Made by a program: the position numbers and the translations under genes. DNA of 64,000 nt from Pseudomaricurvus alkylphenolicus. GTDB lineage: Bacteria; Pseudomonadota; Gammaproteobacteria; Pseudomonadales; Cellvibrionaceae. The stretch lies in the NCBI RefSeq assembly GCF_011683955.1, contig NZ_JAAQPI010000009.1, forward strand, positions 124,001-188,000. Reading direction: 5' to 3'. The notes beneath the pieces were generated by a model. That model was given only the letters and a program-made list of their open reading frames with translations, was not told the DNA's origin and did not search any database. Shown here one piece after another: positions 40,252 to 59,286 of the stretch. Each line of letters begins with the position of its first letter. Position 1 is the stretch's first letter.

Positions 40252-40642
40252 TGACCGGTTGCTATCTTTCTGGTGGCGAGTGATATCTACTTGTCATCAC
40301 TGGCTAAGAACTTAGCCGCGCCACCATAAACTAGCCTCTCAATGAAAGAAATGTCAGAACTTCCAATTGGCGACCTCTGATCGCTGAAATTCTAGGAGTG
40401 CGCGACCTGACGCCACGGGACGCCGCCTCCCTTTTCCAATTTCTCTGACCAATTCGATACTCGATCAATCCGCTGTTGTCACAGGGTGTTAACGCTTTGT
40501 CATCGCGAGCAAAGTAACGACCCTATGATAGGCGTTAACATTTCCTAGCTATCAATAACGCTGGAGCGACAAGGCTGGAAAATGGTCTACATGTGTAAAT
40601 CATGACTCTACGGCAAAGCACATTGAAAATCCTGAGGACACT
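40252..40642 (+). promoter_or_regulatory. Island-edge intergenic region with two operator pairs and structured repeats
   Basis: 391 nt without a gene. It contains a folded element at 40271-40326 (listed separately) and two pairs of the island's 16-bp direct repeats. The first pair is 40271 (TGGTGGCGAGTGATAT, weak) and 40292 (TGTCATCACTGGCTAA). The second is 40477 (TGTCACAGGGTGTTAA) and 40498 (TGTCATCGCGAGCAAA). Both pairs are spaced exactly 21 bp. TATGAT at 40524-40529 is a possible -10 for the downstream operon. A further 9-bp dyad joins TGTTAACGC (40487-40495) and GCGTTAACA (40532-40540). GAGGA upstream of 40643 is the ribosome site. Confidence 0.65.
40271..40326. other. 56-nt sequence able to fold as a three-way junction
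   Basis: Outer stem TGGTGGCG (40271-40278) with CGCCACCA (40319-40326). First inner stem AGTGAT (40279-40284) with ATCACT (40296-40301). Second inner stem GGCTAA (40302-40307) with TTAGCC (40312-40317). The stems abut with only one unpaired base at the junction. It starts 20 nt after the phyH stop. No T tract follows, so it is not a standard terminator. It overlaps one operator pair, which may account for part of the symmetry. Confidence 0.5.
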
Positions 40643-42448
40643 ATGAATCATAATCTACTTAATGAAAGAGATTTAGACTTTTTACTTTACGAGTTCTTGG
40701 ATACAGAGTCCCTATTGGAAAGACCCCGTTATAGAGAACACTCCAGAGAGATTTTTAACGCTACTCTGGATACGGCCCATACGGTCGCAAACCGATACTT
40801 TGCCAATCACAACGCTAGGGGGGACGCCAATGAGCCAAAATTCGAAGGTGAATGCGTTCATTTGATACCAGAGACAAAAGAAGCTTGGAATGCCTTTAGC
40901 GAGGCAGGGTTTCTGGCAGCGCATTATGACTTTGATGAAGGTGGGATGCAGCTCCCCGAGGTAGTTCTGCGTGCTTCGATGGCCTATTTTAGTGCCGCCA
41001 ACATCGCGACTACCGGTTATCCGTTTCTCAGCTTGGGTGCCGCGAACTTGATACATTCTTTTGCTGATGAACAACAGAAGAATAGATTCTTAACGCCAAT
41101 GCAGGAAGGAAGGTTCGCCGGAACCATGGCGCTAACGGAGCCTGGTCAGGGCTCAGCTCTAGCCGACATCAAAACCACAGCAAAGCTTAGTGAAGATGGT
41201 ACATACCGAATCTTCGGTCAGAAGATGTTTATATCCGGCGGTGACCAATCGATAACCGAGAACATTATTCATATGGTGCTGGCCAAGATAGAGGGCGCAC
41301 CTGCCGGGTCCAAAGGGATATCACTGTTTATCTGTCCGAAGTTCAATGTTAACGAAGACGGATCGCTTGGAGAGCGCAATGATGTTGTTCTAGCCGGGTT
41401 GTTGCACAAAATGGGATACCGAAATACAACATCCACGGTTCTGAACTTTGGAGAAAGAGAGGGTGCCGTCGGATACTTAGTTGGTGAGCCTCATATGGGG
41501 CTGCGTTACATGTTTCAGATGATGAATGAAGCTCGTATTGGCGTCGGCCTGGGCGCTTCAGCGCTTGCTTATCAGGGCTTCAATTGCTCGTTGAAGTACG
41601 CACGAGACCGCCCTCAGGGAAGATTACCTTCGAACAAAAAACCCGAATCCAAACAAGTCAGCATTATTCAACACGCCGATGTCAGACGTATGCTATTGGC
41701 GCAAAAAGCTTACGCGGAGGGTGGTATTGCGATGTGCCTCTACGCCAGTTCTCTGTTTGAAGACACTAAAACCGCGGACTCAAGAAAAGTCAGGGAAGAG
41801 TCGTCGCTGCTGTTGGATTTACTGACTCCAATAGTGAAATCCTGGCCTTCGAAATATGGGTTAGCAGCCAATGAGTTGGCGATACAGATATTAGGGGGCT
41901 CAGGGTATATTCGAGAATACCCGGTTGAGCAATACTACCGCGACAACAGGCTTAATCCTATTCATGAGGGTACTGAAGCCATTCACGCGCTCGACATTCT
42001 TGGTAGAAAAGTATCAATGAAGGGAGGGTTGGCCTTCCGGCTTTTCAATCAAACTGTCGATCGAACACTTGCTGAGGCGGAGGGGTACAAGGTTTGCAAA
42101 GACTTCGCTACTGCCTTAAGGCAAAGTATAGATATTCTCAATGATGTTACGCAGGCGCTGTCCTCAAAGGTTGCCCAGGATCCTGACACTGCATTGGCAA
42201 ATGCGACCGTGTATCTGGACCTGTTTGGTCGTGTGTTTGCTGCCTGGATCTGGTTGAAGCAAGCAATCTCAGCAGAAAACTCTCTAAAATCTGAGTGTAT
42301 ATCGAGTGACGATCAAAACTTCTATCTCGGTAAGCTGCAAGTATCACGATACTACTTCCAATGGGAACTTCCGAAAATTTATCAACAGTCGGAGCTACTG
42401 AAGAGTTTTGACTCCGCGCCATTAGAAATGCGCAATGAGTGGTTCTGA
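40643..42448 (+). CDS. Long-type acyl-CoA dehydrogenase (DmdC-like), first of two
   Basis: 601 residues, the length of the extended dehydrogenases with an extra C-terminal domain (DmdC, methylthiopropionyl-CoA dehydrogenase, and relatives). Seen: MALTEPGQGSALADIKTTAK near residue 163 (substrate/FAD site), YRIFGQKMFISGGDQ, HADVRRMLLAQKAYAEGG near 345, and NPIHEGTEAIHALDILGRKV near 441, which carries the expected catalytic glutamate. It introduces a double bond into an acyl-CoA that is not identifiable here. First gene of a four-gene operon with SDRs and a second dehydrogenase, behind an operator pair. Base composition is clearly more A+T-rich than in genes to the left. Confidence 0.88.
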   Translation: MNHNLLNERDLDFLLYEFLDTESLLERPRYREHSREIFNATLDTAHTVANRYFANHNARGDANEPKFEGECVHLIPETKEAWNAFSEAGFLAAHYDFDEGGMQLPEVVLRASMAYFSAANIATTGYPFLSLGAANLIHSFADEQQKNRFLTPMQEGRFAGTMALTEPGQGSALADIKTTAKLSEDGTYRIFGQKMFISGGDQSITENIIHMVLAKIEGAPAGSKGISLFICPKFNVNEDGSLGERNDVVLAGLLHKMGYRNTTSTVLNFGEREGAVGYLVGEPHMGLRYMFQMMNEARIGVGLGASALAYQGFNCSLKYARDRPQGRLPSNKKPESKQVSIIQHADVRRMLLAQKAYAEGGIAMCLYASSLFEDTKTADSRKVREESSLLLDLLTPIVKSWPSKYGLAANELAIQILGGSGYIREYPVEQYYRDNRLNPIHEGTEAIHALDILGRKVSMKGGLAFRLFNQTVDRTLAEAEGYKVCKDFATALRQSIDILNDVTQALSSKVAQDPDTALANATVYLDLFGRVFAAWIWLKQAISAENSLKSECISSDDQNFYLGKLQVSRYYFQWELPKIYQQSELLKSFDSAPLEMRNEWF

Positions 42449-42449
42449 C

Positions 42450-43253
42450 ATGAAAATGAATAAGGTATCAAATAGCAAAGCAATGAACACTGAAATGTTT
42501 TCACTTAAAGGCCGTGTTGCTCTAATAACCGGTGCGTCTTCCGGTATTGGCTACACCCTGGCAAAGGGATTTTCGGCGGCTGGTGCTACTGTAGTGATCG
42601 CCGCTAGACGAATTGAGCGATTACAAGCTCTAGAGGAGGATATTCAATCAAAGGGTGGGAAAGTCGTATCCGTTAATATGGATGTGGTTGACCGAGATAG
42701 CGTCAATGCCGGATTTTCCGTAGCGCAAGATCAGGTCGGGGTCATTGATGTCATTGTAAATAATGCCGGAGTAGCAGACCCGAAAAACTTTATGAGTATT
42801 GATGAAGATTGCCGAGACTATGTTATGAATACTAATTTCAACGGAGTTTGGAATGTTGCCCAGGAAGGTGCGAGGCGGATGATCGAGTCGGATAAACCAG
42901 GCAGCATCGTCAATATTGCATCCATTCTGGCGTTGGGAGTTCAAAAGGGACAATCTGTATATTGTGCTTCAAAAGCCGCTGTTGCACAGTTAACAAAAAG
43001 TTTGGCTCTGGATCTGGCGAAACAAGACATCCGAGTTAATGCCCTGGCTCCGGGCTGGTTCAAAACCGAAATGAATCAAGATTACTTTGACTCCAAACCA
43101 GGTCTTGATTATATAGGACGGATGCCCGCAAGACGGCTGGGTAATCTGGAGGAACTGGTCGGGCCGGCCTTACTTTTGGCCAGCGCCGCAGGTGCTTTTG
43201 TGAATGGCGCTGTACTTCCTGTGGATGGTGCTATTGATGTCGTGAAAATATAG
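42450..43253 (+). CDS. Short-chain dehydrogenase/reductase (SDR), island SDR 1
   Basis: About 267 residues. Classical SDR: NAD(P) motif TGASSGIGYTLAKGFSAAG near residue 25, NNAG, and catalytic Ser with YCASKAAVAQLTKSLALDL. It interconverts an alcohol and a ketone, probably on a CoA-bound or free hydroxy intermediate. The start is uncertain: the ATG at 42435 overlaps the preceding gene by 14 nt, the ATG at 42450 follows its stop by one base, and the fold could start as late as 42483. I use 42450 for its spacing from GAGTGG. Confidence 0.85.
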   Translation: MKMNKVSNSKAMNTEMFSLKGRVALITGASSGIGYTLAKGFSAAGATVVIAARRIERLQALEEDIQSKGGKVVSVNMDVVDRDSVNAGFSVAQDQVGVIDVIVNNAGVADPKNFMSIDEDCRDYVMNTNFNGVWNVAQEGARRMIESDKPGSIVNIASILALGVQKGQSVYCASKAAVAQLTKSLALDLAKQDIRVNALAPGWFKTEMNQDYFDSKPGLDYIGRMPARRLGNLEELVGPALLLASAAGAFVNGAVLPVDGAIDVVKI

Positions 43254-43271
43254 ATTGCGAGTATTTCATCC

Positions 43272-44045
43272 ATGGATATTTACAACAAAGTCATTGCGAT
43301 CACCGGAGGCGCCGGTGGTTTAGGGCTGGAGATGGCAATGCATCTCTCTCAAAAAGGAGCAAATATCGCGCTCATTGATGTAAACCAGACTGGACTTAAT
43401 CGCGCTCTCGGATATTGTGCTGCCATTAACCGGGATTTCGGTACCAAAACTCGCATCTATAACGCCAACGTTGCCAATGAGGAAGAGGTGATAAAAGTAT
43501 TCACCAAAATAAGATCCGATTTTGGCAGCTTACACGGTCTCATCAACAATGCAGGGATCACTAGAGATGCGCTCATGGTGAAGACTAATAGTGAGTGCAT
43601 TTCAACTCGTATGAGTTATGAGCAATGGAAGTCAGTTATCGATGTTAACCTTACCGGTACTTTCCTCTGTGGAAGGGAGGCTGCTACATTGATGATTGAA
43701 AGTGAAAGCAAGGGCGTTATCGTCAACATTGCGAGCATAAGTAAAGCAGGGAACATGGGGCAATCCAACTATTCTGCTTCAAAAGCTGGAGTGGAGGCAC
43801 TCTGTGTAACCTGGGCAAAAGAGTTGTCACGTCATGGCATTCGGAGCGCTGCAGTCGCTCCAGGCTTTATAGAAACTGACTTGGTTGCCAACATGAAGCC
43901 GGAATTGCAAGAATCAATCACTGAGAGGATTCCACTGAAGGAAATGGGAAGGCCTCTTCACATCTCTAAAACGGTCTCCTTTATCCTTGAAAACGACTAT
44001 ATCTCCGGTCGAACAATAGAGGTTGACGCTGGACTGAGGTTCTAA
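43272..44045 (+). CDS. Short-chain dehydrogenase/reductase (SDR), island SDR 2 (FabG-like)
   Basis: 257 residues. Seen: ITGGAGGLGLEMAMHLSQKG (residues 10-29), NNAGITRDALMVK near 92, and YSASKAGVEALCVTWAKELS with the active-site Tyr-x-x-x-Lys. The NNAGITRD segment is typical of 3-oxoacyl reductase (FabG) types, so a beta-hydroxyacyl/ketoacyl-CoA step is plausible. It is 18 nt after SDR 1 and 50 nt before the second dehydrogenase, in the same operon. Confidence 0.88.
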   Translation: MDIYNKVIAITGGAGGLGLEMAMHLSQKGANIALIDVNQTGLNRALGYCAAINRDFGTKTRIYNANVANEEEVIKVFTKIRSDFGSLHGLINNAGITRDALMVKTNSECISTRMSYEQWKSVIDVNLTGTFLCGREAATLMIESESKGVIVNIASISKAGNMGQSNYSASKAGVEALCVTWAKELSRHGIRSAAVAPGFIETDLVANMKPELQESITERIPLKEMGRPLHISKTVSFILENDYISGRTIEVDAGLRF

Positions 44046-44095
44046 CCTTTGTTCAGAGAACACACGTCAAACAACCCAATATTCGGGAACCCACT

Positions 44096-45880
44096 ATGTC
44101 TCTGTACATCGCACCCCTAAGAAACATCAAGTTCGCCATGAACGAAGTGCTCGACTTTCCGAGCCACTACCGCGAATTACCTACAGCGGAAGAAACTATG
44201 TCAGATTTGGTAGATGCGATATTGTCGGAAGCGGCAAAATTCTCTGAAAATGTCATTGCGCCGCTGAACACTGTAGGAGATCTTGAAGGCTGCAAATTTG
44301 ATAATGGCGCTGTCACGACTCCCAAGGGTTTTAAGGAAGCATATGACAGCTTCGTCATGAATGGATGGCATAGCCTTTCTCAGGATGTTGAATATGGTGG
44401 TCAAGGTTTGCCGAGTTCACTCAATAGTATTGTGCTGGAAATGCTAGCCTCGGCAAATCAGGCCTGGGAGATGTATCCGGCGCTTACCTGGGGCGCGATA
44501 AAAACTTTGGAAGCTCATGGCAATTCGGATCTCTGTCGTCAATTTTTACCAAATTTGATCTCTGGAAAGTGGTCTGGAACCATGTGCCTAACTGAATCTC
44601 AAGCGGGTTCCGACTTGGGCCTGCTGCGCACAAAAGCGATTCCCAACGGCGACGCCAGCTATACCATTCGGGGCAGCAAGATCTTTATTTCGGCTGGCGA
44701 CCATGACTTAACCGACAATATCATTCACATTGTGTTGGCACGGCTCCCTGATGCGCCCGAAGGCGTCAAGGGGATTTCCCTGTTCGCCGTACCAAAATAC
44801 AAACTTAATAAGGATGCATCTCTTGGGGAGGGTAATAAAGTCCACTGTGGTTCCATTGAACACAAAATGGGCATACACGGTAATGCCACTTGTGTCATTA
44901 ATTTTGATGACTCAATTGGCTATATGCTGGGAGAGCCCAATAAGGGTATGCGAGCTATGTTCACCTTTATCAATGAATCTCGATTGAGTGTAGCGCAGCA
45001 AGCCGTTGCTAATATGGAGGCTTCTTTCCAGACGGCGTCTAGTTATGCAAGAGAGCGGCTTCAGATGCGAGCGTTCCGACGAATGGACCCGGCAAGTGCG
45101 GCTGATCCCATTATTGCCCATGCAGACGTACGTCGAATGTTGCTAACCCAGAAGGCGTTTGTTGAAGGTGGACGCTTACTGAACTATTTTTGCGCGAAAC
45201 AGATTGATATCGTTGAATCGCACCCGCAAAAGGCTGCTAGAGATACCGCCGACAATCTATTGGGCTTCCTGACGCCCATTGCCAAAGGATTTCTAACAGA
45301 GGTCAGCCAGGAAGCGACATCTCTGGGGATTCAGGTTCTTGGCGGACACGGATACCTGAAGGAATGGGGCCAAGAACAACGCTATAGGGATACGCGCATT
45401 ACCGCCATCTACGAAGGAACTACCGGCATTCAAGGCCTGGATTTGCTCGTTCGAAAGGTATTGGCTTCAAAAAGCAAGCTGCTGGAAAGTTTTGTCTCCA
45501 TTATAGATGGCTTCTGCCGCCAAAATGCCGATACCTACTACGCTATTGCTCTTGGAGATACGGTAGATCAATGGAAGGGCATTTCCAACGAGCTGTCTCT
45601 CCTTACTGAAAGAAACGAGGAAGAAGCCAATGCGGCAGCCTTTGAATACCTGATGTATTCCGGCTACTGCGTCCTAGCCTACTTTCTTGCGGAAGGTGCA
45701 GTATTGGCAGACCGGGAAATTCAATCAGGTTCTGAAGAAGAGCTGTACTATAAATCCAAGCAGACCATTGCTAAGTTCTATTTTGAACGCATTCTGCCCC
45801 GTAAAGATGCTCTGAAAATGGCGATGCTCTCGGGTTCGGCGAATTTGGCGAATCCAGACAATGTCGTATACGACGTCTAA
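44096..45880 (+). CDS. Long-type acyl-CoA dehydrogenase (DmdC-like), second of two
   Basis: 594 residues, a paralogue of the 40643 gene and closer to canonical DmdC-type proteins. It has the N-terminal APLRNIKFAMNEVLDFPSHY, then MCLTESQAGSDLGLLRTKAI near residue 162, RGSKIFISAGDHDLTDNIIH, and AIYEGTTGIQGLDLLVRKVL near 438 with the catalytic glutamate. Family members desaturate short or branched acyl-CoAs, including methylthiopropionyl-CoA. The presence of two such enzymes in one operon suggests two successive desaturation steps or two acyl intermediates. Last gene before an operator pair at 45881. Confidence 0.9.
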   Translation: MSLYIAPLRNIKFAMNEVLDFPSHYRELPTAEETMSDLVDAILSEAAKFSENVIAPLNTVGDLEGCKFDNGAVTTPKGFKEAYDSFVMNGWHSLSQDVEYGGQGLPSSLNSIVLEMLASANQAWEMYPALTWGAIKTLEAHGNSDLCRQFLPNLISGKWSGTMCLTESQAGSDLGLLRTKAIPNGDASYTIRGSKIFISAGDHDLTDNIIHIVLARLPDAPEGVKGISLFAVPKYKLNKDASLGEGNKVHCGSIEHKMGIHGNATCVINFDDSIGYMLGEPNKGMRAMFTFINESRLSVAQQAVANMEASFQTASSYARERLQMRAFRRMDPASAADPIIAHADVRRMLLTQKAFVEGGRLLNYFCAKQIDIVESHPQKAARDTADNLLGFLTPIAKGFLTEVSQEATSLGIQVLGGHGYLKEWGQEQRYRDTRITAIYEGTTGIQGLDLLVRKVLASKSKLLESFVSIIDGFCRQNADTYYAIALGDTVDQWKGISNELSLLTERNEEEANAAAFEYLMYSGYCVLAYFLAEGAVLADREIQSGSEEELYYKSKQTIAKFYFERILPRKDALKMAMLSGSANLANPDNVVYDV

Positions 45881-45917
45881 TGTCACTTGCTGCAAAGTGT
45901 TTGTCGTCTGTTGTTTA
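45881..45917 (+). promoter_or_regulatory. Operator pair upstream of acetoacetate-decarboxylase-like operon
   Basis: Direct repeats TGTCACTTGCTGCAAA (45881-45896) and TGTCGTCTGTTGTTTA (45902-45917), 21 bp start to start, 100-121 nt before the ATG at 46002. Same pattern as at 40477, 50451, 52170 and 54580. Probably an AraC-family binding site; a -10 box is not clear. Confidence 0.6.
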
Positions 45918-46001
45918 GATCGCCGGTTGATATCCGGGTAACTTAATATCCACCCAAGCCGGTATTGAATGTGACCGGCTTCCGCAAATCAGGAGATGAT
46001 A

Positions 46002-46775
46002 ATGGATTCCAATACCTCAAAATTTGGTCGTCTTACCCCTAAAAACTGGGGTGAGACTATGCCGGCCCATAGCCCCTCCTACAAAAAGGGACCATGGTTC
46101 TACCGGGATACCGAAGCTGTGATAGTAACTTACCTTACTGATGAAGAGGCAGCGCTAGACATTTTGCCTTCAGATCTAGAGCTTGTTCAGCCTGCTACTG
46201 CCTTTATGGTCATCGAATTCAACCACTTCAGCACTAGTGGTGGACCTTATGGAGAAGTGTATACGGGGATTTTGTGCCAGTACGAAGGCCAGGTGTATGG
46301 CTACACCAACGCTGTGTATGTAACAACAGAAAATGCACTGACTCTTGGACGGGAAATCTGGGGCTTTGGCAAAAAGATGGCTCATCGCATTGAGTTGATT
46401 AGGCATGGCACAGGCGAGATTGAAGCCGTCGTCGAAGTAAAGGAAGGGCAGATCGCCGCCAGAGCGCTTATAACACCGGAAACTAACCTCCCCGCGTCGG
46501 TACTGGAAGAAATACCATTGGCTGTTCTCAAAATTATACCCGGTGTAGAAGGAGAAGAACCGGATGTTGCGAAGCTCAACAGAGTTTGTTTCGGTGGGCC
46601 TCCACACAAGGGGCCGGACGGCAAAGACGAAGTCTATAGTGGCGAGGCCTCTCTGGAGGTGGATAAAGTCTCCGATGTGAATTTGCCGGTCATCCAGGTA
46701 GTGGACGCTAAATATGTCAGAATGGTTGCCGATCTACCATACGGAGAAACACTGATCGATTATAAGAACAGGTAA
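46002..46775 (+). CDS. Acetoacetate decarboxylase (ADC) family protein
   Basis: 257 residues with the ADC fold. Seen: the Schiff-base lysine region GREIWGFGKKMAHRIEL (lysines near residue 124), as in acetoacetate decarboxylase where the first lysine forms the imine, and FNHFSTSGGPYGEVYTGILC near 70. Members decarboxylate beta-keto acids or do other imine chemistry such as hydration and aldol steps, so the reaction here is open. The ATG at 46002 has AGGAG 6 nt upstream; an ATG at 45996 overlaps that site. It heads a five-gene operon running to 50299. Confidence 0.85.
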   Translation: MDSNTSKFGRLTPKNWGETMPAHSPSYKKGPWFYRDTEAVIVTYLTDEEAALDILPSDLELVQPATAFMVIEFNHFSTSGGPYGEVYTGILCQYEGQVYGYTNAVYVTTENALTLGREIWGFGKKMAHRIELIRHGTGEIEAVVEVKEGQIAARALITPETNLPASVLEEIPLAVLKIIPGVEGEEPDVAKLNRVCFGGPPHKGPDGKDEVYSGEASLEVDKVSDVNLPVIQVVDAKYVRMVADLPYGETLIDYKNR

Positions 46776-46785
46776 AAGGCCACCT

Positions 46786-47556
46786 ATGGATACTCTTGAT
46801 TTTTCAGTTTCTCTAAAGGGCAAGGTTGCTATAGTAACCGGGGCTAAAGGAGGCATCGGCAGAGCCGTTGCCTTACTACTGGCCTCGTCCGGTGCGGATG
46901 TTGTCATAACCGATATTCATGCAGCGGCTAGCCAAATAGAGACGGTTGCTGAGAAAATCAGAGATCGTGGTGTTCGGTGTGTTTCGATTACCGCTGATAT
47001 TACCAGGAAAAACGATCTTGACCAACTGCTGGGCGATGTTTTGAATGAGTTCGGTTCAGTGGATCTATTAGTGAACGTCGCGGGGGTGTATCTCTCCAAT
47101 CCGCTTTTGGACTTTGATGAAGAAAGATGGAATACCCTTTTTGATGTCAATCTGAAAGGCGTATTTCTGGCTTGTCAATCGGTTGCCAAGATCATGGTGC
47201 AACAAGAATCCGGTTGCATTATCAATATCTCTTCTGACAGCGCCCTGGATGTCGCCGAAGGCGACGGCCCCTATAGTGCGTCTAAATCTGGTGTGATCGC
47301 GATAACCCGCCATCTATCCAAGGAGCTTGGGAAGTTCAACGTTCGTGCCAATGCTATTGCCCCGGGCTGGGTTAAGACAGAAATGACCGAATTTGTGTGG
47401 AGAGATCCACAGTTGCTAAAGGAAGCGGAAGCACAAATCCCACTGGGCTATATCGCCGAACCTCGTGATATTGCCAATGTTGCTCTTTTTCTAGCCTCTG
47501 AGGCCTCTCGATACGTGACAGGTCAGGTAATAGTAGCTAATGGCGGTCGGGTATGA
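46786..47556 (+). CDS. Short-chain dehydrogenase/reductase (SDR), island SDR 3
   Basis: 256 residues. Seen: IVTGAKGGIGRAVALLLASS near residue 16, a less usual NVAG in place of NNAG (DLLVNVAGVYLSNPLLDF), and GPYSASKSGVIAITRHLSKE with the catalytic Tyr and Lys. The C-terminal ASRYVTGQVIVANGG is typical. NAD(P)-dependent oxidation or reduction of an unknown alcohol/ketone. It begins 10 nt after the ADC-like gene. Confidence 0.88.
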   Translation: MDTLDFSVSLKGKVAIVTGAKGGIGRAVALLLASSGADVVITDIHAAASQIETVAEKIRDRGVRCVSITADITRKNDLDQLLGDVLNEFGSVDLLVNVAGVYLSNPLLDFDEERWNTLFDVNLKGVFLACQSVAKIMVQQESGCIINISSDSALDVAEGDGPYSASKSGVIAITRHLSKELGKFNVRANAIAPGWVKTEMTEFVWRDPQLLKEAEAQIPLGYIAEPRDIANVALFLASEASRYVTGQVIVANGGRV

Positions 47557-47605
47557 TGACTCCTCTGCATAGTTCAAAAGAAGAGAATCTTCCAAGAGTT
47601 TCACT

Positions 47606-48631
47606 ATGTTAACAAAACAAGTTCATTTATTAAGGCGACCTGAAAAAGTTTCCGTCGATGACTTCGAAGTTCGCGAAGTTGACTTGCCGGAACTCGAAAA
47701 CAATCAGGTATTGATCGAAAATCTCTATATGTCCGTTGATCCCTATATGCGTCGATCCATGGAGTCTGACGGTAAGGATCTTGATCCCTGGCCATTAAAC
47801 GCTCCTTTGGACGGTCCATCCATTGGCAGGGTGATCGAATCGAATAACCCGAACTATGCAATTGGAGACATAGTTGAAAGCATGTCGGGTTGGCAACAGC
47901 ATTTCATCTCTGATGCGGAAGACTTTGTCCCCTACCTGTCATCGAATAATGCCATTGTAAAAAGAAATGGGGTAGAAAATATTGACCCAATGGATTATGT
48001 AGGACTACTGGGCATTGCAAGCCAAACCGCCTATTTCGCGATGATGTGTGCCACCACGCTGGTGCCTGGTGAAACAACGGTTATTTCCAGTGGCGCCGGA
48101 TCAGTTGGATCGTTGGCATGTCAAATCGCCAAAATCCAAGGTGCTCGTGTGGTTACCTCCGCCGGATCAGATAGAAAAGTCGAGTGGCTGCGTGATGAGC
48201 TTGGCGTAGACTTTGCTTTTAACTATAAAACAACCCCAATTGACATTGGCTTGCGTGAAGGATGTCCAAATGGAATCGACCAGGTGTTGGAAAACGCCAG
48301 CCCTGAACATTTTTCCGCTTGCCTGCCCTTGATGAACTTCGGCAAACAGCTTCTCATTGCCGGAATGGTAGGAATTTACGACTCCGGTGGGAAAGTGAAC
48401 AATATCGACAATTTCGAGCATGTTCTGGACAGCTTCCTTACGATTAAAGGGCACCTGTTTATGGACTATCTTGATGCCTACGATCAGTTTACCAAGGATA
48501 TGTTGACTTGGCGTGGCGAAGGTAAACTCATTCAAAAAGTTCATGTATTTGAGGGAATCGAATCGGCTCCGGAGGCGCTGTTGGCATTGTTTAACGGTAA
48601 AGGTCGTGGAAAAATCGTTGTTAGGGTTTAA
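47606..48631 (+). CDS. Zinc-independent MDR-family NADP-dependent reductase (CurA / prostaglandin-reductase-like)
   Basis: 341 residues. Medium-chain reductase lacking the zinc-binding residues of alcohol dehydrogenases. Seen: NLYMSVDPYMRRSM near residue 40, the family hallmark, GLLGIASQTAYFAMM near 133, and the nucleotide fold VISSGAGSVGSLACQIAKIQ near 153. Relatives reduce the 2,3-double bond of conjugated enones or enals, such as leukotriene and curcumin reductases. In this operon it may saturate an alpha,beta-unsaturated ketone of the pathway. Confidence 0.88.
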   Translation: MLTKQVHLLRRPEKVSVDDFEVREVDLPELENNQVLIENLYMSVDPYMRRSMESDGKDLDPWPLNAPLDGPSIGRVIESNNPNYAIGDIVESMSGWQQHFISDAEDFVPYLSSNNAIVKRNGVENIDPMDYVGLLGIASQTAYFAMMCATTLVPGETTVISSGAGSVGSLACQIAKIQGARVVTSAGSDRKVEWLRDELGVDFAFNYKTTPIDIGLREGCPNGIDQVLENASPEHFSACLPLMNFGKQLLIAGMVGIYDSGGKVNNIDNFEHVLDSFLTIKGHLFMDYLDAYDQFTKDMLTWRGEGKLIQKVHVFEGIESAPEALLALFNGKGRGKIVVRV

Positions 48632-48634
48632 GCA

Positions 48635-49489
48635 ATGAAAACAGTCAATCCCGGACCTTGGGTAAACCCGGAAATCGTAGAAGAAGATCCCTGGTTAACT
48701 CAGAAGGGTCCAATAAAGCTCATCGAGTTCCCGGTACGCAATCCCAAGATGTCACGCAGGGCATTTCAGTTGTACTGGCAAAAGCACCACTCACTTCATG
48801 TGATGAACATCACCTCATTCTCCCAATTTATTCGGAAATACAATAGCGCTCACGTTTACCCGGAGTCTACAGACTTGTTACCGGATGAGTTCAAGCACAA
48901 TTCGGAGCGTGAAGGCGCTTCAGAGCTTTGGCTGGATAGTCTGGAGGATATTGACGCCTGGTTCCGCCAGCCGGCATACGAGGAGTTGATTCAGCCCGAC
49001 GAGTTACGCTTTCTCTCTCAAGAAAAAGAAGGAGAGTTTATCCTTGCTAAGGAGGAGCCACTGTTCGTACCTGATTTGGATATGAGGGAAAGTAACAAAA
49101 CCAAGGTATACCTACTTTTCAAACGAAATACCGATCAAAGCTACGATCAGTTTCACAGAACTCTAAGTGACTATGGCAAGCTTATTTTGGAGCAAGAGAC
49201 CCTACGCCAACATATTATTAAGTTGGTTGTCAGCCATAGACTACGGGATCCTCTACCTGAGGGTTTTGATTCTTCAGAAATCGAAGGAATACTAGAGGTA
49301 TGGTTCCAGGATTCCGAGAGGCTTAAAAACTTCTTCCAAGACGATAACTATACCGAATTCGGCGGGCGCATTGAGGTAGTGGAATTTAACGGGTCATCCG
49401 CAGAGGCAATTGTTGCTAAGGTACGCGTGGTCCATGACGAGTGCTCTTTTCAGCCCATTGAAAATCAGACTGTATCTTTTGGTTGGTAA
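48635..49489 (+). CDS. EthD-domain-like protein, probable tandem dimeric alpha-beta barrel
   Basis: 284 residues. The N-terminal half carries an EthD-like pattern, KLIEFPVRNPKMSRRAFQLY followed by WQKHHSLHV (about residues 28-57), and then QFIRKYNSAHVYPE. The C-terminal half (VYLLFKRNTDQSYDQFHRTL near 165) looks like a second, weaker copy. EthD proteins are small ferredoxin-fold proteins of unclear role in ether and polyketide or aromatic degradation; some relatives are cyclases or isomerases. It starts 3 nt after the reductase gene, so it is tightly coupled to it. Confidence 0.7.
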   Translation: MKTVNPGPWVNPEIVEEDPWLTQKGPIKLIEFPVRNPKMSRRAFQLYWQKHHSLHVMNITSFSQFIRKYNSAHVYPESTDLLPDEFKHNSEREGASELWLDSLEDIDAWFRQPAYEELIQPDELRFLSQEKEGEFILAKEEPLFVPDLDMRESNKTKVYLLFKRNTDQSYDQFHRTLSDYGKLILEQETLRQHIIKLVVSHRLRDPLPEGFDSSEIEGILEVWFQDSERLKNFFQDDNYTEFGGRIEVVEFNGSSAEAIVAKVRVVHDECSFQPIENQTVSFGW

Positions 49490-49537
49490 TATGAATAGTT
49501 GAATTTGTAGCGGTTGCAAAACAAATGAGAGTTAAAC

Positions 49538-50299
49538 ATGATGAGCTTTTATGACAAAGTTGCTCTGGTTACCGGGGCAGGGTCTGGTATAGGCCAAGCA
49601 ACAGCCATCGCCTTTGCCAAGCGTGGTGCCAATGTCGTGGCTGCGGATGTCGATACGGATGGTCTGAAAATGACTAAGTCCATCGCTCAGGAGTATGACG
49701 GAAGTATCTCCTCTGTACGGGTAGACGCTGCGAACTCAGCTTCCGTTGAAGAAATGATATCCACAGCGACTTCACAGTTTGGTCGCTTGGATTATGCCTG
49801 TAATATTGCAGGAATTACGGGAACAGAGTGTGGTTTTACCGATTGTACCGAGGAAAATTGGGACAAAGTCATCAATGTTAATTTGAAGGGCGTCTGGTTA
49901 TGCATGAAGTATCAGCTTCGTCAAATGCTAAAACAAGGGCACGGCTCAATTGTGAATATGTCCTCGGTTGCGGGTTTGGTGGGAATGAATGACAGACTAG
50001 CGCCTTATGGGCCCAGCAAATTCGGAGTTGTGGGCCTGACAAAATCGGCAGCGCTTGAGTTCGCCAGGCAGAACATAAGAATCAACGCAGTATGTCCAGG
50101 GGAAATAATGACTCCGATGCAGGAGGCATATATAAAAAACTCTCCTGAGTTAGAAACCAAGGCCATTGATTCAGAACCTATAGGGAGATTCGGGATTCCG
50201 GATGAAGTTGCCGAGGCAGTGCTGTGGTTATGTTCTGATGCGGCGTCTTTTGTCACTGGACATGCGATGGCCATCGATGGGGGATATGTTGCTCAGTAG
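49538..50299 (+). CDS. Short-chain dehydrogenase/reductase (SDR), island SDR 4
   Basis: 253 residues. Seen: LVTGAGSGIGQATAIAFAKR near residue 10, NIAGITG in place of NNAG, VNMSSVAGLVGMNDRLAPYG with catalytic Ser, and PYGPSKFGVVGLTKSAALEF with Tyr and Lys. The C-terminal SFVTGHAMAIDGGYVAQ is canonical. Last gene of the ADC-like operon; a 262-nt gap with an operator pair follows. GAGAG lies upstream; start at 49538 or the next codon ATG at 49541. Confidence 0.88.
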   Translation: MMSFYDKVALVTGAGSGIGQATAIAFAKRGANVVAADVDTDGLKMTKSIAQEYDGSISSVRVDAANSASVEEMISTATSQFGRLDYACNIAGITGTECGFTDCTEENWDKVINVNLKGVWLCMKYQLRQMLKQGHGSIVNMSSVAGLVGMNDRLAPYGPSKFGVVGLTKSAALEFARQNIRINAVCPGEIMTPMQEAYIKNSPELETKAIDSEPIGRFGIPDEVAEAVLWLCSDAASFVTGHAMAIDGGYVAQ

Positions 50300-50450
50300 C
50301 CATTCTCAGTTATTTCCCGCGTTTGTCAACGGGTACCATCCGGTGCCCGGATCTCCTCGTTCGTTCTGAGCTTCTTATCACATTCTGACCTATCATTTTC
50401 CTTCTTTATTTCTATCCATAATGAGTGGGCTTCCTGTCTATGTGTCGGAT

Positions 50451-50487
50451 TGGCACCTGTTGTTTAGCGGTTGTCGTCCCAGGTACA
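50451..50487 (+). promoter_or_regulatory. Operator pair upstream of VOC/TetR operon
   Basis: Direct repeats TGGCACCTGTTGTTTA (50451-50466) and TGTCGTCCCAGGTACA (50472-50487), 21 bp apart, 90-111 nt before the ATG at 50562. The second matches the 52191 repeat at 13 of 16 positions; the first matches the 45902 repeat at 13 of 16. Confidence 0.65.
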
Positions 50488-50561
50488 TTAATAGGACAAG
50501 CATACGGTTATTGTAATGGTTCGAGCTAAAGCAACCTTGCGTATCTGATAGGAGACAATGA

Positions 50562-51506
50562 ATGACAGCGACTACACTAAACACGCCACTTAGACTGGAC
50601 CATTTAGCCATATGGGTTTCCGATATGGAGCAGTCACTCAGTTTTCTGTGCGATGTGGTGGGTTTTCAGCGACATCCCATGGTTGTAGAGGTAAGTGAAG
50701 ATGATCCAACCTGCGGTGGCATGAAGGCGATGTTTGCTGATGGCAATGGCCTGTGGCTTGAACTCATCCTGCCCACGGCACCGGGCCCGGGGTTGGAGAT
50801 CCTGGAACAGGTTGGAGATGGCGCCATTGTTGAGGTTAACTTTGAGGCGGTGGACGAGGACTATCGTGCCCTCATTGATGATATGACGTCGAAAGGTATC
50901 CAAATGTTGGGAATGGATGGTTCAATTCTCAAGGATTATGGCCGTATTGATGAGGGGGTTGCGGGGAATAAAGAGTCTAAGGAGTCAGGCCAATATATCG
51001 CCTACTGGCCGACAGAATTGACTGGAGGGACAACCGTTGAGGTCTACGAAAAACTGCGCAATGATGCAACAAATTTGCTGAATATGCGGGAAAGGGAATG
51101 GATGCATAATGTCCCTGATGTGAATGCGCCCTGCATTGATCACTTGTCGATTGTTGTCGAAAACCTGGAGCACGCCTCAAGTTTTTACACGGATATTATG
51201 GGGCTTTCTTGTACAAATGGCAGCGGGAATTCCGACGAGATGAAGGTGGCCTGGATTGACGCCAATGGGGTATGGATACAATTATGTCAACCAGTAAAAC
51301 CAGGGCCCCTTATGGAACTAATGAAGGAAAAGGGGAGTGGATATCCAATGAAAATCGTTGCGTCAGTCAATGATTTCGAAACCTATTGTTCTGATATTAA
51401 CTCAAGGGGCATCGATCTGATTACCCTAGGTTCTGATTCCGTGCGTTTTCCACCGGAAGTGAGTCGCGGTATGGAAATAGAGGTTGTCAAGAAAGTAGTG
51501 AGATAG
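50562..51506 (+). CDS. Double-VOC (glyoxalase/bleomycin-resistance fold) protein 1
   Basis: 314 residues, two VOC modules. Module 1 (about 10-160) has LDHLAIWVSDMEQSLSFL with the metal His, GLWLELILP with Glu, and TTVEVYEKL. Module 2 (about 185-314) has IDHLSIVVENLEHASSFY, but the middle ligand position reads GVWIQLCQP, so Gln replaces Glu, then MEIEVVKK. VOC proteins bind divalent metal and act as epimerases, lyases or dioxygenases. It is paralogous to the 60490-61536 protein, which keeps Glu in both modules. Function unknown. It is followed 29 nt later by a TetR gene. Confidence 0.85.
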   Translation: MTATTLNTPLRLDHLAIWVSDMEQSLSFLCDVVGFQRHPMVVEVSEDDPTCGGMKAMFADGNGLWLELILPTAPGPGLEILEQVGDGAIVEVNFEAVDEDYRALIDDMTSKGIQMLGMDGSILKDYGRIDEGVAGNKESKESGQYIAYWPTELTGGTTVEVYEKLRNDATNLLNMREREWMHNVPDVNAPCIDHLSIVVENLEHASSFYTDIMGLSCTNGSGNSDEMKVAWIDANGVWIQLCQPVKPGPLMELMKEKGSGYPMKIVASVNDFETYCSDINSRGIDLITLGSDSVRFPPEVSRGMEIEVVKKVVR

Positions 51507-51535
51507 GGTTTTCTATAGACGTAAGGAGAAAACCG

Positions 51536-52168
51536 GTGACAGAGCCCCGCATTAGCACGATGAGTTCTGGGAGATCGAAAGTTGCAACGCGAACTCGTGG
51601 GCAGCAGCGCCGCGCCGAAATAATTGAAGCTGCGACAGCCATCCTTCTGGAAAAAGGTCACAGCGGTTTAGTGCTGAGGGACGTAGCCGCGAGGGTAGGA
51701 ATTCGCATTGGAAATCTTCACTACTACTTCCAAAATAAGCAGGAGTTATTAATCGCGATTTTCAGCCATCAAAGCTCTGCCTATGTTCAGGGTGTGAAGG
51801 ATGCGGTGTCTCTGGTAAAAGGCAGAGAGTCTGGGTTATTGGCGATATTTGACGCCGGACTTTCGGTTATTAAGCGGCCTGAGGCGAAACTGTGGAAAAT
51901 TCTTATAGCCCGGGCCCAATACGATCCTGAAGCCCGAGCGCTATTTCTCCAAGAGAATCAAATTTATCACCAAATCACAGTGGAAGCACTGCTAAACATT
52001 GATTCATCAATCTCTGAAACAAGAGCACTGGCGATTGCACATTTTGTCTGGACATTGCTTGATGGGATATCGCTTCAGATCGGGCTCATTTCCGAGACAT
52101 CGGAGGAATTCATTTCAGTTGAAGAAGAGGCTCGTCAAACCGTCAAAAACCTGTTGCGAGCCGACTGA
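51536..52168 (+). CDS. TetR family transcriptional regulator
   Basis: 210 residues. HTH region VLRDVAARVGIRIGNLHYYF near residue 43, followed by QNKQELLIAIFSHQS, the standard TetR N-terminus. The C-terminal ligand domain is not recognisable beyond the family. The GTG at 51536 has AAGGAGAA 5 nt upstream. It is probably co-transcribed with the VOC gene. Its target and inducer, perhaps an acyl-CoA or the substrate, are unknown; its own operator was not recognised. Confidence 0.9.
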   Translation: MTEPRISTMSSGRSKVATRTRGQQRRAEIIEAATAILLEKGHSGLVLRDVAARVGIRIGNLHYYFQNKQELLIAIFSHQSSAYVQGVKDAVSLVKGRESGLLAIFDAGLSVIKRPEAKLWKILIARAQYDPEARALFLQENQIYHQITVEALLNIDSSISETRALAIAHFVWTLLDGISLQIGLISETSEEFISVEEEARQTVKNLLRAD

Positions 52169-52169
52169 T

Positions 52170-52206
52170 TGTCACAGAGAGTTAAGGGTTTGTCGTTTCC
52201 GGTACA
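52170..52206 (+). promoter_or_regulatory. Operator pair upstream of TonB-dependent receptor gene
   Basis: Direct repeats TGTCACAGAGAGTTAA (52170-52185) and TGTCGTTTCCGGTACA (52191-52206), 21 bp apart, beginning right after the TetR stop and 126-147 nt before the ATG at 52317. The first repeat matches the 40477 repeat at 14 of 16 positions. Confidence 0.65.
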
Positions 52207-52316
52207 GTGAAGAGGATCATAAGTTCATATATTACGATTGAAAGATTCGAAATAGCGGGTATTCCACTATTTCACGGTCCCAAAAAAACATAATGAATGC
52301 TACTGGAGAGCAATTG

Positions 52317-54491
52317 ATGTTTACCACAAGACGAGAATCAGAATACCGTAAGGGCCTGAGCTACCTGATGAGTGCCAGTCTGTCAACCGTTACTCTGCTG
52401 GGCGCGATATCAGCTCACTCTTCGGTGCTCGAGGAAATTGTAGTTACCGCACAAAAGCGTGAACAAAGCCTGCAAGATGTTGGTGTCGCAGTCACGGCCT
52501 TTTCAGGCGACCAGTTGGACAAGCTTGGACTCGACAGCGCCATTGATCTTGTAGCACAAACACCAGGGTTGGAGGTTTCAGGCGCTGGCGGCGGTACCAT
52601 CAATTCGTTCAGTGTACGGGGGGTCGCCCAGAATGATTTTGCAGCCTCACAAGAGTCACCCGTCGCGGTCTACATTGATGAAGGCTACATCAGCCTCAAT
52701 AGTATTACCAACTTCAGCCTGTTTGATATCGATCGGGTTGAGGTGCTCAGAGGCCCTCAGGGAACGCTGTTTGGGCGCAACGCGACAGGTGGTCTTCTGC
52801 ATTACATTACACAAAGACCGTCGCAGGAGTTTAATGGATATGTAGACGTTGAGCTTGGTGAGTCCGGCCGCAAACGTATTGAGGCAGCTGTTGGTGGAGC
52901 CGTCACAGATGTCGTATCCGGTCGTTTGTCAGCGGTATTAAATAAAAATGATGGGCTGATCAAGAACGATATAGGGCCCAACCTGATGACAGCGGATGAT
53001 TATTCAGTTCGCGCACAAGTGATGATTGAGCCAACCGATGACCTCAATATCCTAATCAAGGCACAATATGCAGATGAAGACAGTGTCAGGGGAGGCTACG
53101 CCCACCAAGTGGCATCTGAGGGAGACTTCGTCTCCGATCCCGCGGCGACTGATTTCTTTGGTTACAAGGATGCCGATGGTAATCCTTATACTCAGTCGAA
53201 TGATTTCGCGGGCTATAAACTCGCAGAAATGTCTGAACTGGCGCTTCATGTCAACTGGGCGCTGGGCGACTACGAGCTGACATCCATCACTGACTACCAG
53301 GATATTGACGATGCCTATGGTGAAGACGCAGATGCCTCGCCGGCCGATGTCTACAACTATGAACAGGAGAATGCCGTCAAACAGTTGTCCCAGGAATTTC
53401 GGTTGAGCTGGGAGGGTGAGGCATCACGAAGTGTTGTTGGATTTTTCTACCTCAATATTGACGGAGAATACATGACCCGGCAAACGGGTGATGCCTTTTT
53501 TGGCACGGGTGTCGGGTATCCACAAGGTACTGCCGAAGTAGCCGGCGCTGACCAGGAAACAACCACCTATGCACTGTTCGGTCAGACAGAAATTGATCTG
53601 ACTGAAGCCCTGGCTTTAACACTTGGGGCGCGTGTTAACAAAGATAAGAAGGATTTTGACTATCAATCCACAGATATTTACTTTCTGCAGGGTGGTTCAT
53701 TTGTACACCGGGATTCGTTTACAGACACGGACTGGTCCGGGAAGATACAGCTTGACTACAGGCCTACTGGAGACTGGCTGCTCTATGCTGGCATAAATCG
53801 CGGTATTAAGTCAGGAGGGTTCAATCTTCCTTTGTACCCGATTGCCTCTGAAGACTTTGAATTCGGCGGTGAAGTTCTTAATTCGTACGAGATTGGTCTA
53901 AAGGGAACTCTTACGGAAACAACCCGCTTGAATGCATCAGTCTATTACTATGATTATGAAGATTATCAGGCTTACTCCTTTGATGGCTTCGCGACCTTCT
54001 TGTTTAATGCCAGTGCGGAAACAACCGGCGCGGAAATTGAACTGATTTCCAACCCCGTGCAGGGATTGGATCTGCTCCTTGGTATTGCATGGCTCGATTC
54101 AGAGGTAACCGATGTGCCGCTCTCCATTTCTGCTACCGGGACAGAAGACGCGGTGTTAGCCCCCGAATTTTCAGTCAATGGTCTAATTCGTTATTCCTGG
54201 GACCTGTCATTCGGTACGGTGGCAGTGCAGCTGGATGCCAACTGGAAGGATGATCACAACTTCAACCTTTCGTTCTCTCCCGTTATTCAAGAAGAAGCGT
54301 ATGGAGTGGCGAACGCGAAAATCAGTTTCTACAGCAGCGATGATACTTGGTCGGGGTCTCTGTTTGTCAAGAACCTGACCGACAGACAATATCGTTCCTA
54401 TGCATTTGACTCCACCGGTTTTTTTAACTCTATAGAGAATGTTCCTGGTACTGAACGATGGATAGGAGCAAATCTCAAGTATCAGTGGTAG
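52317..54491 (+). CDS. TonB-dependent outer-membrane receptor
   Basis: 724 residues. Signal peptide (about 1-38), a TonB-box-like segment LEEIVVTAQKREQSLQDVGV, a plug domain (about 45-170; GLEVSGAGGGTINSFSVRGV, VEVLRGPQGTLFGRNATGGL), then a 22-strand-type barrel ending in WIGANLKYQW with the terminal aromatic residue. It energises uptake of a large or scarce substrate across the outer membrane. The plug resembles receptors common in marine degraders of terpenoids, steroids and aromatics rather than known siderophore receptors. The ATG at 52317 has GGAGAG 6 nt upstream; an ATG at 52293 lacks one. It is followed by a terminator. Confidence 0.92.
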   Translation: MFTTRRESEYRKGLSYLMSASLSTVTLLGAISAHSSVLEEIVVTAQKREQSLQDVGVAVTAFSGDQLDKLGLDSAIDLVAQTPGLEVSGAGGGTINSFSVRGVAQNDFAASQESPVAVYIDEGYISLNSITNFSLFDIDRVEVLRGPQGTLFGRNATGGLLHYITQRPSQEFNGYVDVELGESGRKRIEAAVGGAVTDVVSGRLSAVLNKNDGLIKNDIGPNLMTADDYSVRAQVMIEPTDDLNILIKAQYADEDSVRGGYAHQVASEGDFVSDPAATDFFGYKDADGNPYTQSNDFAGYKLAEMSELALHVNWALGDYELTSITDYQDIDDAYGEDADASPADVYNYEQENAVKQLSQEFRLSWEGEASRSVVGFFYLNIDGEYMTRQTGDAFFGTGVGYPQGTAEVAGADQETTTYALFGQTEIDLTEALALTLGARVNKDKKDFDYQSTDIYFLQGGSFVHRDSFTDTDWSGKIQLDYRPTGDWLLYAGINRGIKSGGFNLPLYPIASEDFEFGGEVLNSYEIGLKGTLTETTRLNASVYYYDYEDYQAYSFDGFATFLFNASAETTGAEIELISNPVQGLDLLLGIAWLDSEVTDVPLSISATGTEDAVLAPEFSVNGLIRYSWDLSFGTVAVQLDANWKDDHNFNLSFSPVIQEEAYGVANAKISFYSSDDTWSGSLFVKNLTDRQYRSYAFDSTGFFNSIENVPGTERWIGANLKYQW

Positions 54492-54519
54492 TGGATAAGT
54501 ACTGTCAGTGATTGCTTTG

Positions 54520-54555
54520 GGCCAGGGTATCATAGGGGATTCCTGGCCTTTTTTT
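54520..54555 (+). terminator. Rho-independent terminator after TonB-dependent receptor gene
   Basis: Stem GGCCAGG (54520-54526) with CCTGGCC (54542-54548), 15-nt loop, then seven T (54549-54555). It ends the receptor transcript just before the next operator pair. Confidence 0.85.
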
Positions 54556-54579
54556 GTCTGAGACATCTGCCTCATCGGT

Positions 54580-54616
54580 TGTCATTACAGGCTAATAGCT
54601 TGTCACTCCAAGATAA
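54580..54616 (+). promoter_or_regulatory. Operator pair upstream of aminotransferase operon
   Basis: Direct repeats TGTCATTACAGGCTAA (54580-54595) and TGTCACTCCAAGATAA (54601-54616), 21 bp apart, 77-98 nt before the ATG at 54678. The first matches the 40292 repeat at 14 of 16 positions. It follows the receptor terminator, so this must be a new promoter region. Confidence 0.65.
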
Positions 54617-54677
54617 GAACCCAATCAATAAAACAACGAAGATAAGTAACAGTCGAATAAGAAGTCGAGGAAATATT

Positions 54678-56054
54678 ATGGAGAACGCATATCCGGGGCA
54701 AATCAATGCTAAGCGTTCCGCAGCGCTGCGTGATCATATCTATGCAGATTACAAAGTAAGAACGGTGCAATCGGGGCAGATGTTCGAGAAAGCCAAATCT
54801 GTTCTCCCTGGTGGCGTGTCTGGAAACCTGAGGTTTTTCCCGCCGTATCCTCTTTATATGACAAGTGGCCGGGGCAGCCAGGTAACGGATATTGATGGAA
54901 ACCGCTATATCGACTGTTTTAGCGCCAATGGCCCACTACTACTCGGTCATAGTCATCCGGCGTTAATGAAAGCGCTAGACAATGGACACGACTACGGGTT
55001 GTTGCCACTGAATCCACCGGTGATGATCGAGTGTGCCGAGCTTGTAAAGGAAATAGTTCCCTGTGCTGAACGGGTACGTTTTTTAAACACGGGAACGGAA
55101 GCGGTGATGACCGCTGTGCGCTATGCCAGAGCTTACACCGGAAAGCAAAAAATCCTAAAGTTTCACGGTCACTATCACGGACAGCAAGATCAATTCCTGT
55201 TCGGAATGGGCGCCGATCGAGCACTATTTTCAGCCGGCGTTCCTGATGATTCAATCACCAGTACACTTGTATGCCCCTACAACGATATTGAATCGGTCAG
55301 GCAATCACTTGAGACCGACGGTAATATTGCGGCCGTGATACTTGATCCAGCCATGCATGCCGGTGGGCTCTGGGGTAGCCAAAGAGACTTCCTGGTTGAA
55401 CTGAGAGAAACAACCCAACAGAAAGGTGTGCTTCTGATCTTTGACGAAGTGATTACGGGCTGCCGACTGGCACTGGGAGGAGCTCAGGAATACTTTAGGG
55501 TGGTTCCTGATCTGGTTACCATGGCAAAAGCATTGGGTGCTGGGGAAAAGCTTGCCGTCGTAGCGGGATCGGAAGCGGTAATGAGTGTGGTAGATCCTTT
55601 AGCATCGAAAGGCACCCCCCGAGTCTTTCAGTCGGGAACGGTAAATGACGGCTCCGTCGCATTGAGCGTTGCTTGCGCTGCCTTAAGGGAATATCAAAAA
55701 CTTTCCTCTGCTGGCGAATATGAGCGCCTGGAGATGAGGGCGGAGAAATTGCAGGCCGGAATTATGTCAGCCTTCGATGCCCATGGCATTAACTGTCAGG
55801 TCAACGGCATCAGTTCCATGCTGCAACTCTATATTGCGCCAGAACCAGTCACATTCGATAGTAGCCAGAAGTTGGACATGAGCTTTGTACAGCTTTTTTA
55901 TCTGGCTTTAATCAACGAAGGCGTATTGTTGTCAGTACCGACTTCGAATCATATTTATCTGTCTTTTGCTCATTCCGACAATGATGTAGACAAGATACTG
56001 GACGCCGTGCAAGTCGTTTTGAATCGCTATGACTTTGCCGGTTCGATTTTGTAG
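54678..56054 (+). CDS. Class III PLP aminotransferase (glutamate-1-semialdehyde aminomutase-like)
   Basis: 458 residues. Seen: SVLPGGVSGNLRFFPPYPLY near residue 45, LNTGTEAVMTAVRYARAYTG near 136, HGHYHGQQDQFLF near 162, FDEVITGCRLALGGAQEYF with the PLP-binding Asp near 255, and PDLVTMAKALGAG with the Schiff-base lysine near 281. It resembles GSA aminomutase, but the context is catabolic, so a transaminase acting on a primary amine or amino acid to give an aldehyde or keto acid is more likely; the next gene oxidises aldehydes. The ATG at 54678 has CGAGGA upstream. Confidence 0.85.
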   Translation: MENAYPGQINAKRSAALRDHIYADYKVRTVQSGQMFEKAKSVLPGGVSGNLRFFPPYPLYMTSGRGSQVTDIDGNRYIDCFSANGPLLLGHSHPALMKALDNGHDYGLLPLNPPVMIECAELVKEIVPCAERVRFLNTGTEAVMTAVRYARAYTGKQKILKFHGHYHGQQDQFLFGMGADRALFSAGVPDDSITSTLVCPYNDIESVRQSLETDGNIAAVILDPAMHAGGLWGSQRDFLVELRETTQQKGVLLIFDEVITGCRLALGGAQEYFRVVPDLVTMAKALGAGEKLAVVAGSEAVMSVVDPLASKGTPRVFQSGTVNDGSVALSVACAALREYQKLSSAGEYERLEMRAEKLQAGIMSAFDAHGINCQVNGISSMLQLYIAPEPVTFDSSQKLDMSFVQLFYLALINEGVLLSVPTSNHIYLSFAHSDNDVDKILDAVQVVLNRYDFAGSIL

Positions 56055-56068
56055 AATTGGAGTCAGTT

Positions 56069-57502: not shown

Positions 57503-57537
57503 ATCATCCCCAAAACGAAAACTAGAGGTAAACTGAA

Positions 57538-59166: not shown

Positions 59167-59286
59167 GCGCTGCAAAAAGAGTGCCATCTTTCCGATTGGG
59201 CAATCCAGTTCCTATGTTGTGATAGGGCGGATGACTATCAGATAGCCTTCAGCTATTATTTATTGTTATTGGCTGAATATTACACT

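Follow-up and report, generated by a model that had tools for sequence, protein, structure and literature searches.

Paired direct repeats before six operons of a Pseudomaricurvus catabolic island as predicted operators of one AraC/XylS-type activator

Organization of the island and its repeat pairs

A 64,000-nucleotide stretch of the Pseudomaricurvus alkylphenolicus genome (RefSeq assembly GCF_011683955.1, contig NZ_JAAQPI010000009.1, positions 124,001 to 188,000 of the forward strand), hereafter the window, contains a 21-kb catabolic gene set (the island) in which six pairs of 16-bp direct repeats precede six transcription units. The last gene of the fifth unit (59287..60309, plus strand) encodes an AraC-type regulator with a PF12625 (Arabinose_bd) and a PF12833 (HTH_18) domain, the proposed binder of all six pairs. 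Unit borders were drawn from gene spacing; gene contents were assigned with Pfam for ten scanned proteins and by inspection for the others.

The first five pairs and units lie on the plus strand. Pair 1 (40477..40513, half-sites at 40477 and 40498) is located 129 bp before the ATG at 40643, with a -10 element, TAACAT (40536-40541), predicted by a promoter matrix. Unit 1 (40643..45880) encodes an acyl-CoA dehydrogenase, two short-chain dehydrogenases/reductases (SDRs, by inspection) and another acyl-CoA dehydrogenase. Pair 2 (45881..45917, half-sites at 45881 and 45902) directly follows the stop codon of unit 1, and the same matrix predicts a -10 element, TAACTT, at 45939-45944. Unit 2 (45996..50299) consists of an acetoacetate decarboxylase-like protein, an SDR, a medium-chain dehydrogenase/reductase (MDR), an EthD-domain protein and a second SDR, the SDRs and the MDR reductase again by inspection. 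Pair 3 (50451..50487, half-sites at 50451, a TGGC variant, and 50472; predicted -10 TATTGT, 50509-50514) precedes unit 3 (50562..52168), where profile matches identify a two-domain vicinal oxygen chelate (VOC) protein and a TetR/BetI-like regulator (51536-52168). Pair 4 (52170..52206, half-sites at 52170 and 52191; predicted -10 TATATT, 52228-52233) precedes a gene for a TonB-dependent receptor (unit 4, 52293..54491; profile match).

Pair 5 (54580..54616, half-sites at 54580 and 54601) has a weak predicted -10 element, GAAGAT (54638-54643), and is conserved at positions 53-89 of a related locus, L007, described below. Only with a TTG start would it fall inside an open reading frame (ORF); the ATG at 54678 is the likely start of the first gene of unit 5. 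In this unit (54678..60309), genes for a class III aminotransferase, an aldehyde dehydrogenase (by inspection) and an acyl-CoA ligase are followed by that for the AraC-type regulator. No pair in the DNA between the ligase and regulator genes scores above 6.1, so this gene is probably co-transcribed with the rest of the unit. A possible weaker third half-site, TGAGACATCTGCCTCA, is found at 54559-54574, 21 bp upstream of pair 5. Pair 6, on the minus strand (61704..61740; TGGCATCCAGTGAAAA-N5-TGGCACCCGGTGGAAA, TGGC in both halves; predicted -10 TATACT, 61678-61683), is followed 167 bp downstream by the start of unit 6 (60490..61536, minus strand), a VOC gene identified by inspection and by its likeness to 50562-51506. 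Judged from gene content, the island might, at a guess, carry a route from an amine through an aldehyde and an acid to an acyl-CoA.

Five of these pairs had been proposed in a first-pass annotation of the window, and all ten of their 16-mers were located exactly where it had placed them. The base pattern also holds: TGTC is exact in nine of ten half-sites (TGGC at 50451), and a purine at position 5, G12 and A16 are each present in all ten. Each pair does precede a transcription unit, as does the sixth. The terminator described just before pair 54580 can be recognized by eye (GGCCAGG...CCTGGCC followed by seven T residues); it is absent from the list of the terminator scan, whose loop limit was 8.

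With pair 6 included, the half-site consensus is TGKCR-N6-G-N3-A over 16 bp. TGKC, the purine at position 5, G12 and A16 are kept in 12/12 half-sites, and the two halves are in direct orientation exactly 21 bp apart in 6/6 pairs. The strict pattern, TGTCR-N6-G-N3-A twice at 21 bp, occurs at five places in the 8.88-Mb genome, four of them within the island, compared with one place for a reversed-pattern control. Leave-one-pair-out matrices were run over both strands of the window; in 5/5 runs the left-out pair ranked fifth, behind the four training pairs, with scores of 22.7-27.9. Pair 6 was found by the matrix of ten half-sites, to which it had not contributed, at 22.0 bits (18.4-22.7 across the leave-one-out matrices). 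Under an independent-column null, ∼0.003 positions per window are expected at 22 bits or more, a value derived from the final 12-site matrix and thus approximate for the leave-one-out scores. At the loci of the acyl-CoA dehydrogenase paralogues (76% and 52% identity), no pair scoring at least 14 was found within 18-19 kb around.

Promoter register and relation to known operators

The sequence downstream of each pair was scored at offsets 0-59 with a -10 matrix built from E. coli-like frequencies. As a set, the six island pairs show a single -10 optimum, at an offset of 21 bp (±1 base) from the proximal half-site, which was not equalled when the 70 bp downstream were shuffled 2000 times. The individual scores, from pair 1 to pair 6, are 5.4, 3.6, 4.8, 6.9, 1.6 and 7.3 bits. 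Eight further pairs, seven from elsewhere in this genome and the one in L007, have their optimum at the same offset (0/2000 shuffles as good). The seven were required to contain TGKC in both halves and to score at least 14 bits, and they include C11:572345. Two matrix matches without TGKC in the first half-site, C68:310509 and C18:45392, were excluded from this test; neither has a good -10 element at offset 20-22. Single promoters are uncertain; the -10 register of the set is not.

A 17-bp spacer would place the predicted -35 element over the last two bases of the proximal half-site. XylS overlaps the -35 element by 2 bp. The predicted -35 hexamers match TTGACA at only one to three of six bases, and a consensus promoter scan of 40100-55000, which spans five of the six pairs, listed no promoter using these -10 elements. 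With predicted -10 elements 20-22 bp downstream, the pairs fall into the class II register of AraC/XylS activators.

Several known operators resemble these pairs. The XylS sites at Pm are described as tandem direct repeats, each with box A followed by box B, separated by 6 bp (PMC5481539), and the repeats of CphR at cphA2A1 extend from -35 to -69 (PMC6205950). The CphR sites share the register of the island pairs, and the two designs differ in sequence: XylS and CphR recognize 15-bp TGCA-N6-GGNTA (TGCA and GGTA for XylS), compared with the 16-bp TGKCR-N6-G-N3-A of the island. The island half-sites do not follow TGCA-N6-GGNTA, as their box A is TGTC or TGGC in 12/12. An overlap of the XylS and polymerase sites is also stated, if only in the title of a cited study. 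At AggR-dependent promoters, the activator site lies 21-22 bp before the -10 element and overlaps the -35 element (PMC6392122); this distance is shared with the island, whereas the AggR site is single and of another sequence. The Pseudomonas ArgR ARG box is a 16-bp TGTCGCN6GNAA in tandem with 5 bp between copies, giving a 21-bp period (PMC10963909). It has in common with the island pairs the TGTC start, A16 and the period, but has G13 where the island has G12, and position 5 in the island is A or G. The combination of C6 and G13 is not found in the 12 half-sites, which have G at position 12 and C or T at position 6. The geometry of the ArgR and XylS/CphR sites is therefore nearly the same as that of the island pairs while the fixed bases differ, which makes the island a new regulon with operators of an established type. 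The N-terminal domain of ArgR also differs from that of the 59287 product.

The proposed regulator and competing explanations

Profile searches confirmed the AraC gene that the first-pass annotation had placed at 59287 (product of 59287-60306; PF12833, 7.4e-19; PF12625, 3e-44). The product scores 266.8 against the QhpR family (NCBIfam NF049968; cut-off 250), a family linked to the quinohemoprotein amine dehydrogenase operon. Genes for the latter enzyme (PF09098) are located only at C34:607836 and C68:185494, and the window lies on C70. The name QhpR was consequently rejected as unsupported by context, both PF09098 genes being on other contigs.

A search for the regulator in GTDB representatives, whose reach was limited to close relatives, returned 26 loci, of which one exceeds 40% identity (L007, 62%). 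Among 389 further genomes sampled from the order, none reached an E-value of 1e-60, and in 144 genomes of the family the matches beyond the query's own are 29-35% identical. Searches of plasmid collections with the AraC and EthD proteins gave only relatives below 60% identity (best listed match of the AraC protein, 36.5%; two records for the EthD protein). L007 belongs to a Haliea sp. metagenome-assembled genome (MAG) and preserves the gene order of unit 5, with an aminotransferase (61% identity), an aldehyde dehydrogenase (69%), a ligase (63%) and the AraC gene (62%), together with a relative of the VOC gene 60490 (75%) that is cut at the contig end. The EthD protein was not found in this MAG. 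In keeping with the expected conservation in a related island, a pair scoring 25.7 precedes the aminotransferase gene of L007 in otherwise diverged DNA, again with a -10 element at 21.

A more distant cluster in a genome from another family of the class (G532:C3; L206 and L207) provides a comparison. Within a 40-kb region, 12 of 35 ORFs match island proteins, representing relatives of at least ten island genes with best identities of 34-59%. No ORF in this region matches the island AraC protein at 1e-10, no PF12625 protein is present in the genome, and no pair in the region scores 12 or more. A relative (36%) of the TetR/BetI-like protein 51536 is present in the cluster; its occurrence in a genome without PF12625 proteins suggests a second layer of control.

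Taken together, the sites, their spacing, the -10 register, the conservation in one relative and the order of the operons are evident at the sequence level, and we consider it highly probable that one AraC/XylS-type activator uses the six pairs as its operators and acts in a class II fashion, the 59287 product being the most likely candidate. The assignment to AraC/XylS-type operators, made on the first pass from the 21-bp spacing, is well supported by the geometry, the -10 distance, the conservation in L007 and the absence of pairs from the G532 cluster, whose genome is free of PF12625 proteins. The idea of a single regulon holds locally, with at least six units instead of five; its motif skeleton is not exclusive to one regulator.

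For this proposed system we infer binding, activation, an inducer and autoregulation. Two activator subunits would bind on one face of the DNA, each at a half-site, the half-sites being offset by 21 bp or two helical turns. The promoter-proximal half-site would cover the -35 region, with the -10 element starting 20-22 bp downstream; in such a fixed register, the bound activator could recruit RNA polymerase despite the poor -35 elements. A substrate or intermediate of the island pathway probably serves as the inducer and would be sensed by the PF12625 domain. As the AraC gene is the last in unit 5, induction would probably feed back on it. One island regulator thus probably switches on the whole pathway. 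An uncharacterized 21-kb gene set would become one predicted pathway under one switch, which could be tested by a single deletion or an inducer screen.

Several observations weigh against this explanation. The -10 element at 54638 is weak (1.6 bits), and better candidates exist at pair 1 (TATGAT at offset 10, 6.3 bits) and pair 2 (TAATAT at offset 26, 5.4 bits). The score of pair 6 (22.0) is below all five leave-one-out scores. An AraC counterpart was found in only one relative, with one promoter on its contig, so that conservation amounts to one pair. The G532 comparison is single and distant, and intergenic DNA there still contains a single loose pair at 21 bp, TGTC with TGGC. Finally, the 8.9-Mb genome has 101 matches to PF12625 that pass the cut-off, of which a few are partial, and another regulator could bind too.

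The last point leads to the strongest competitor, in which the pairs are AraC-type operators bound by another PF12625 protein, or by several that cross-bind, the 59287 product among them. Similar pairs beside several other PF12625 regulators, in addition to the number of such proteins, favor this possibility. We nevertheless regard it as improbable. No other PF12625 gene lies closer than ∼70 kb on the contig, the AraC counterpart in L007 travels with its pair, and the half-site interiors near other regulators differ, tracking their DNA-binding domains. The genome-wide matrix scan proposed on the first pass was carried out over 1.945 Mb (∼22%), about half of which lies within 5 kb of PF12625 genes by design, an extent that also applies to the spacing scans. 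The six best pairs are all in the island, from which the matrix itself was built.

The TetR/BetI-like regulator 51536 offers another candidate, either as the binder of the repeats or as the repressor part of a composite site with an activator. Its relative in the G532 cluster means that TetR control of the gene set may predate AraC control. TetR proteins generally bind palindromes, whereas these repeats are direct, and the G532 cluster has the TetR protein but no pair scoring 12 or more. TetR binding was rejected on both grounds, and we judge this explanation very unlikely. Chance similarity among selected 16-mers was likewise rejected and is hardly credible: the motif was picked after the fact by a reader of a large window, but it is contradicted by four findings that played no part in that choice, namely the leave-one-out ranks, the sixth site that had not been foreseen, the site in L007 and the constant -10 register.

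Similar pairs near other PF12625 regulators

To place the island pairs in a wider context, the PF12625 family was surveyed across genomes. Sixty other sampled genomes of the family contain 0-33 matches, in a survey that scored no more than 45 candidates for the source genome itself; 45 matches above cut-off are present in the Haliea MAG of L007. In the scanned 1.945 Mb, seven non-island pairs score at least 18; each has a PF12625 gene within 3.2 kb, and six are intergenic. Two of the seven lack both TGKC in the first half and a -10 element.

Counts of TGKC pairs at 21 bp were compared with those at 32 other spacings. Outside the island, intergenic sequence up to 5 kb from PF12625 genes contains 45 pairs at 21 bp vs 17.3 (sd 4.1, max 28). 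The corresponding numbers are 34 vs 22.3 (sd 6.6, max 38) for intergenic DNA elsewhere and 630 vs 429 (sd 126, max 697) for coding DNA. Coding DNA favors multiples of three, which makes leakage a concern for the 21-bp excess; near PF12625 regulators, other multiple-of-three spacings yield 11-28 pairs only. A -10 element of at least 4.5 bits at 20-22 bp follows 16 of 52 pairs spaced 21 bp (52 instead of 45 owing to a different intergenic rule and distance limit), compared with 26 of 792 at other spacings. These 16 include some of the seven pairs used in the shuffle test, so the two -10 tests are not independent.

Similarity between DNA-binding domains correlates with similarity between operators among 12-19 regulators, including those of the island and L007 (Pearson 0.48-0.62, 0/5000 permutations as high; Spearman 0.31-0.35, 0-12/1000 as high). 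The lower Spearman values indicate that a few closest regulator pairs carry much of the correlation. For example, C25:22138 and C70:105047 have DNA-binding domains that are 86% identical and operators TGGCGCCAAATG and TGGCACCAAATG.

Evidence from other genomes is mixed. Around the 20 PF12625 genes that score best among family relatives, there are six pairs at 21 bp vs 3.4 ± 2.2 (max 10), which is not significant; the -10 spacing is present in two of these six and in 1 of 110 at other spacings. In L007-L031, mostly loci of distant homologues (L032 was excluded), the 21-bp spacing accounts for 20 pairs, against 22 for 24 bp and 21 for 12 bp, so that no clear preference emerges. Among ten aligned distant-homologue loci, three (L009-L011) contain TGTCAAGC direct repeats 21 bp apart on the minus strand near 9705, upstream of QhpR-like AraC genes.

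The operator grammar is thus not private to the island but belongs to part of a large paralogous PF12625 family; beyond the island it is supported in this genome and only hinted at elsewhere. We tentatively suggest, as a possibility short of even odds, that a sizeable subset of the ∼100 PF12625 regulators may share TGKC-N17-TGKC with a -10 element at 20-22 bp, and that the half-site interior would track the DNA-binding domain. If this were true, the genome would be a natural experiment in which an AraC recognition code could be deciphered and dozens of uncharacterized catabolic islands could be given targets defined by their operators. The occurrence of the grammar near other paralogues could help to match ∼100 unassigned AraC regulators to their targets and to put an AraC recognition code to the test. 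Among the open-licence papers listed in our literature searches, none was seen to describe the operators of a PF12625 expansion of this kind.

A few individual loci are worth describing. At C25:21709 and C70:106003 (L041:2003), paralogous regulators whose DNA-binding domains are 86% identical have nearly the same pair, located before a gene of ∼400 amino acids that, at C70, appears by inspection to be an acyl-CoA dehydrogenase. Two genomes of the genus seem to share a conserved pair next to a PF12625 gene, at C3:63507 and in G249 at L213:7404 (TGTCCGAAWATG...TGGCAG). At locus L040, the pairs at C11:969834 and C11:975823 are alike at 30 of 37 bases, with a PF12625 gene between them. They stand before genes for an enoyl-CoA hydratase-like protein and a TonB receptor, and likely define a second small regulon.

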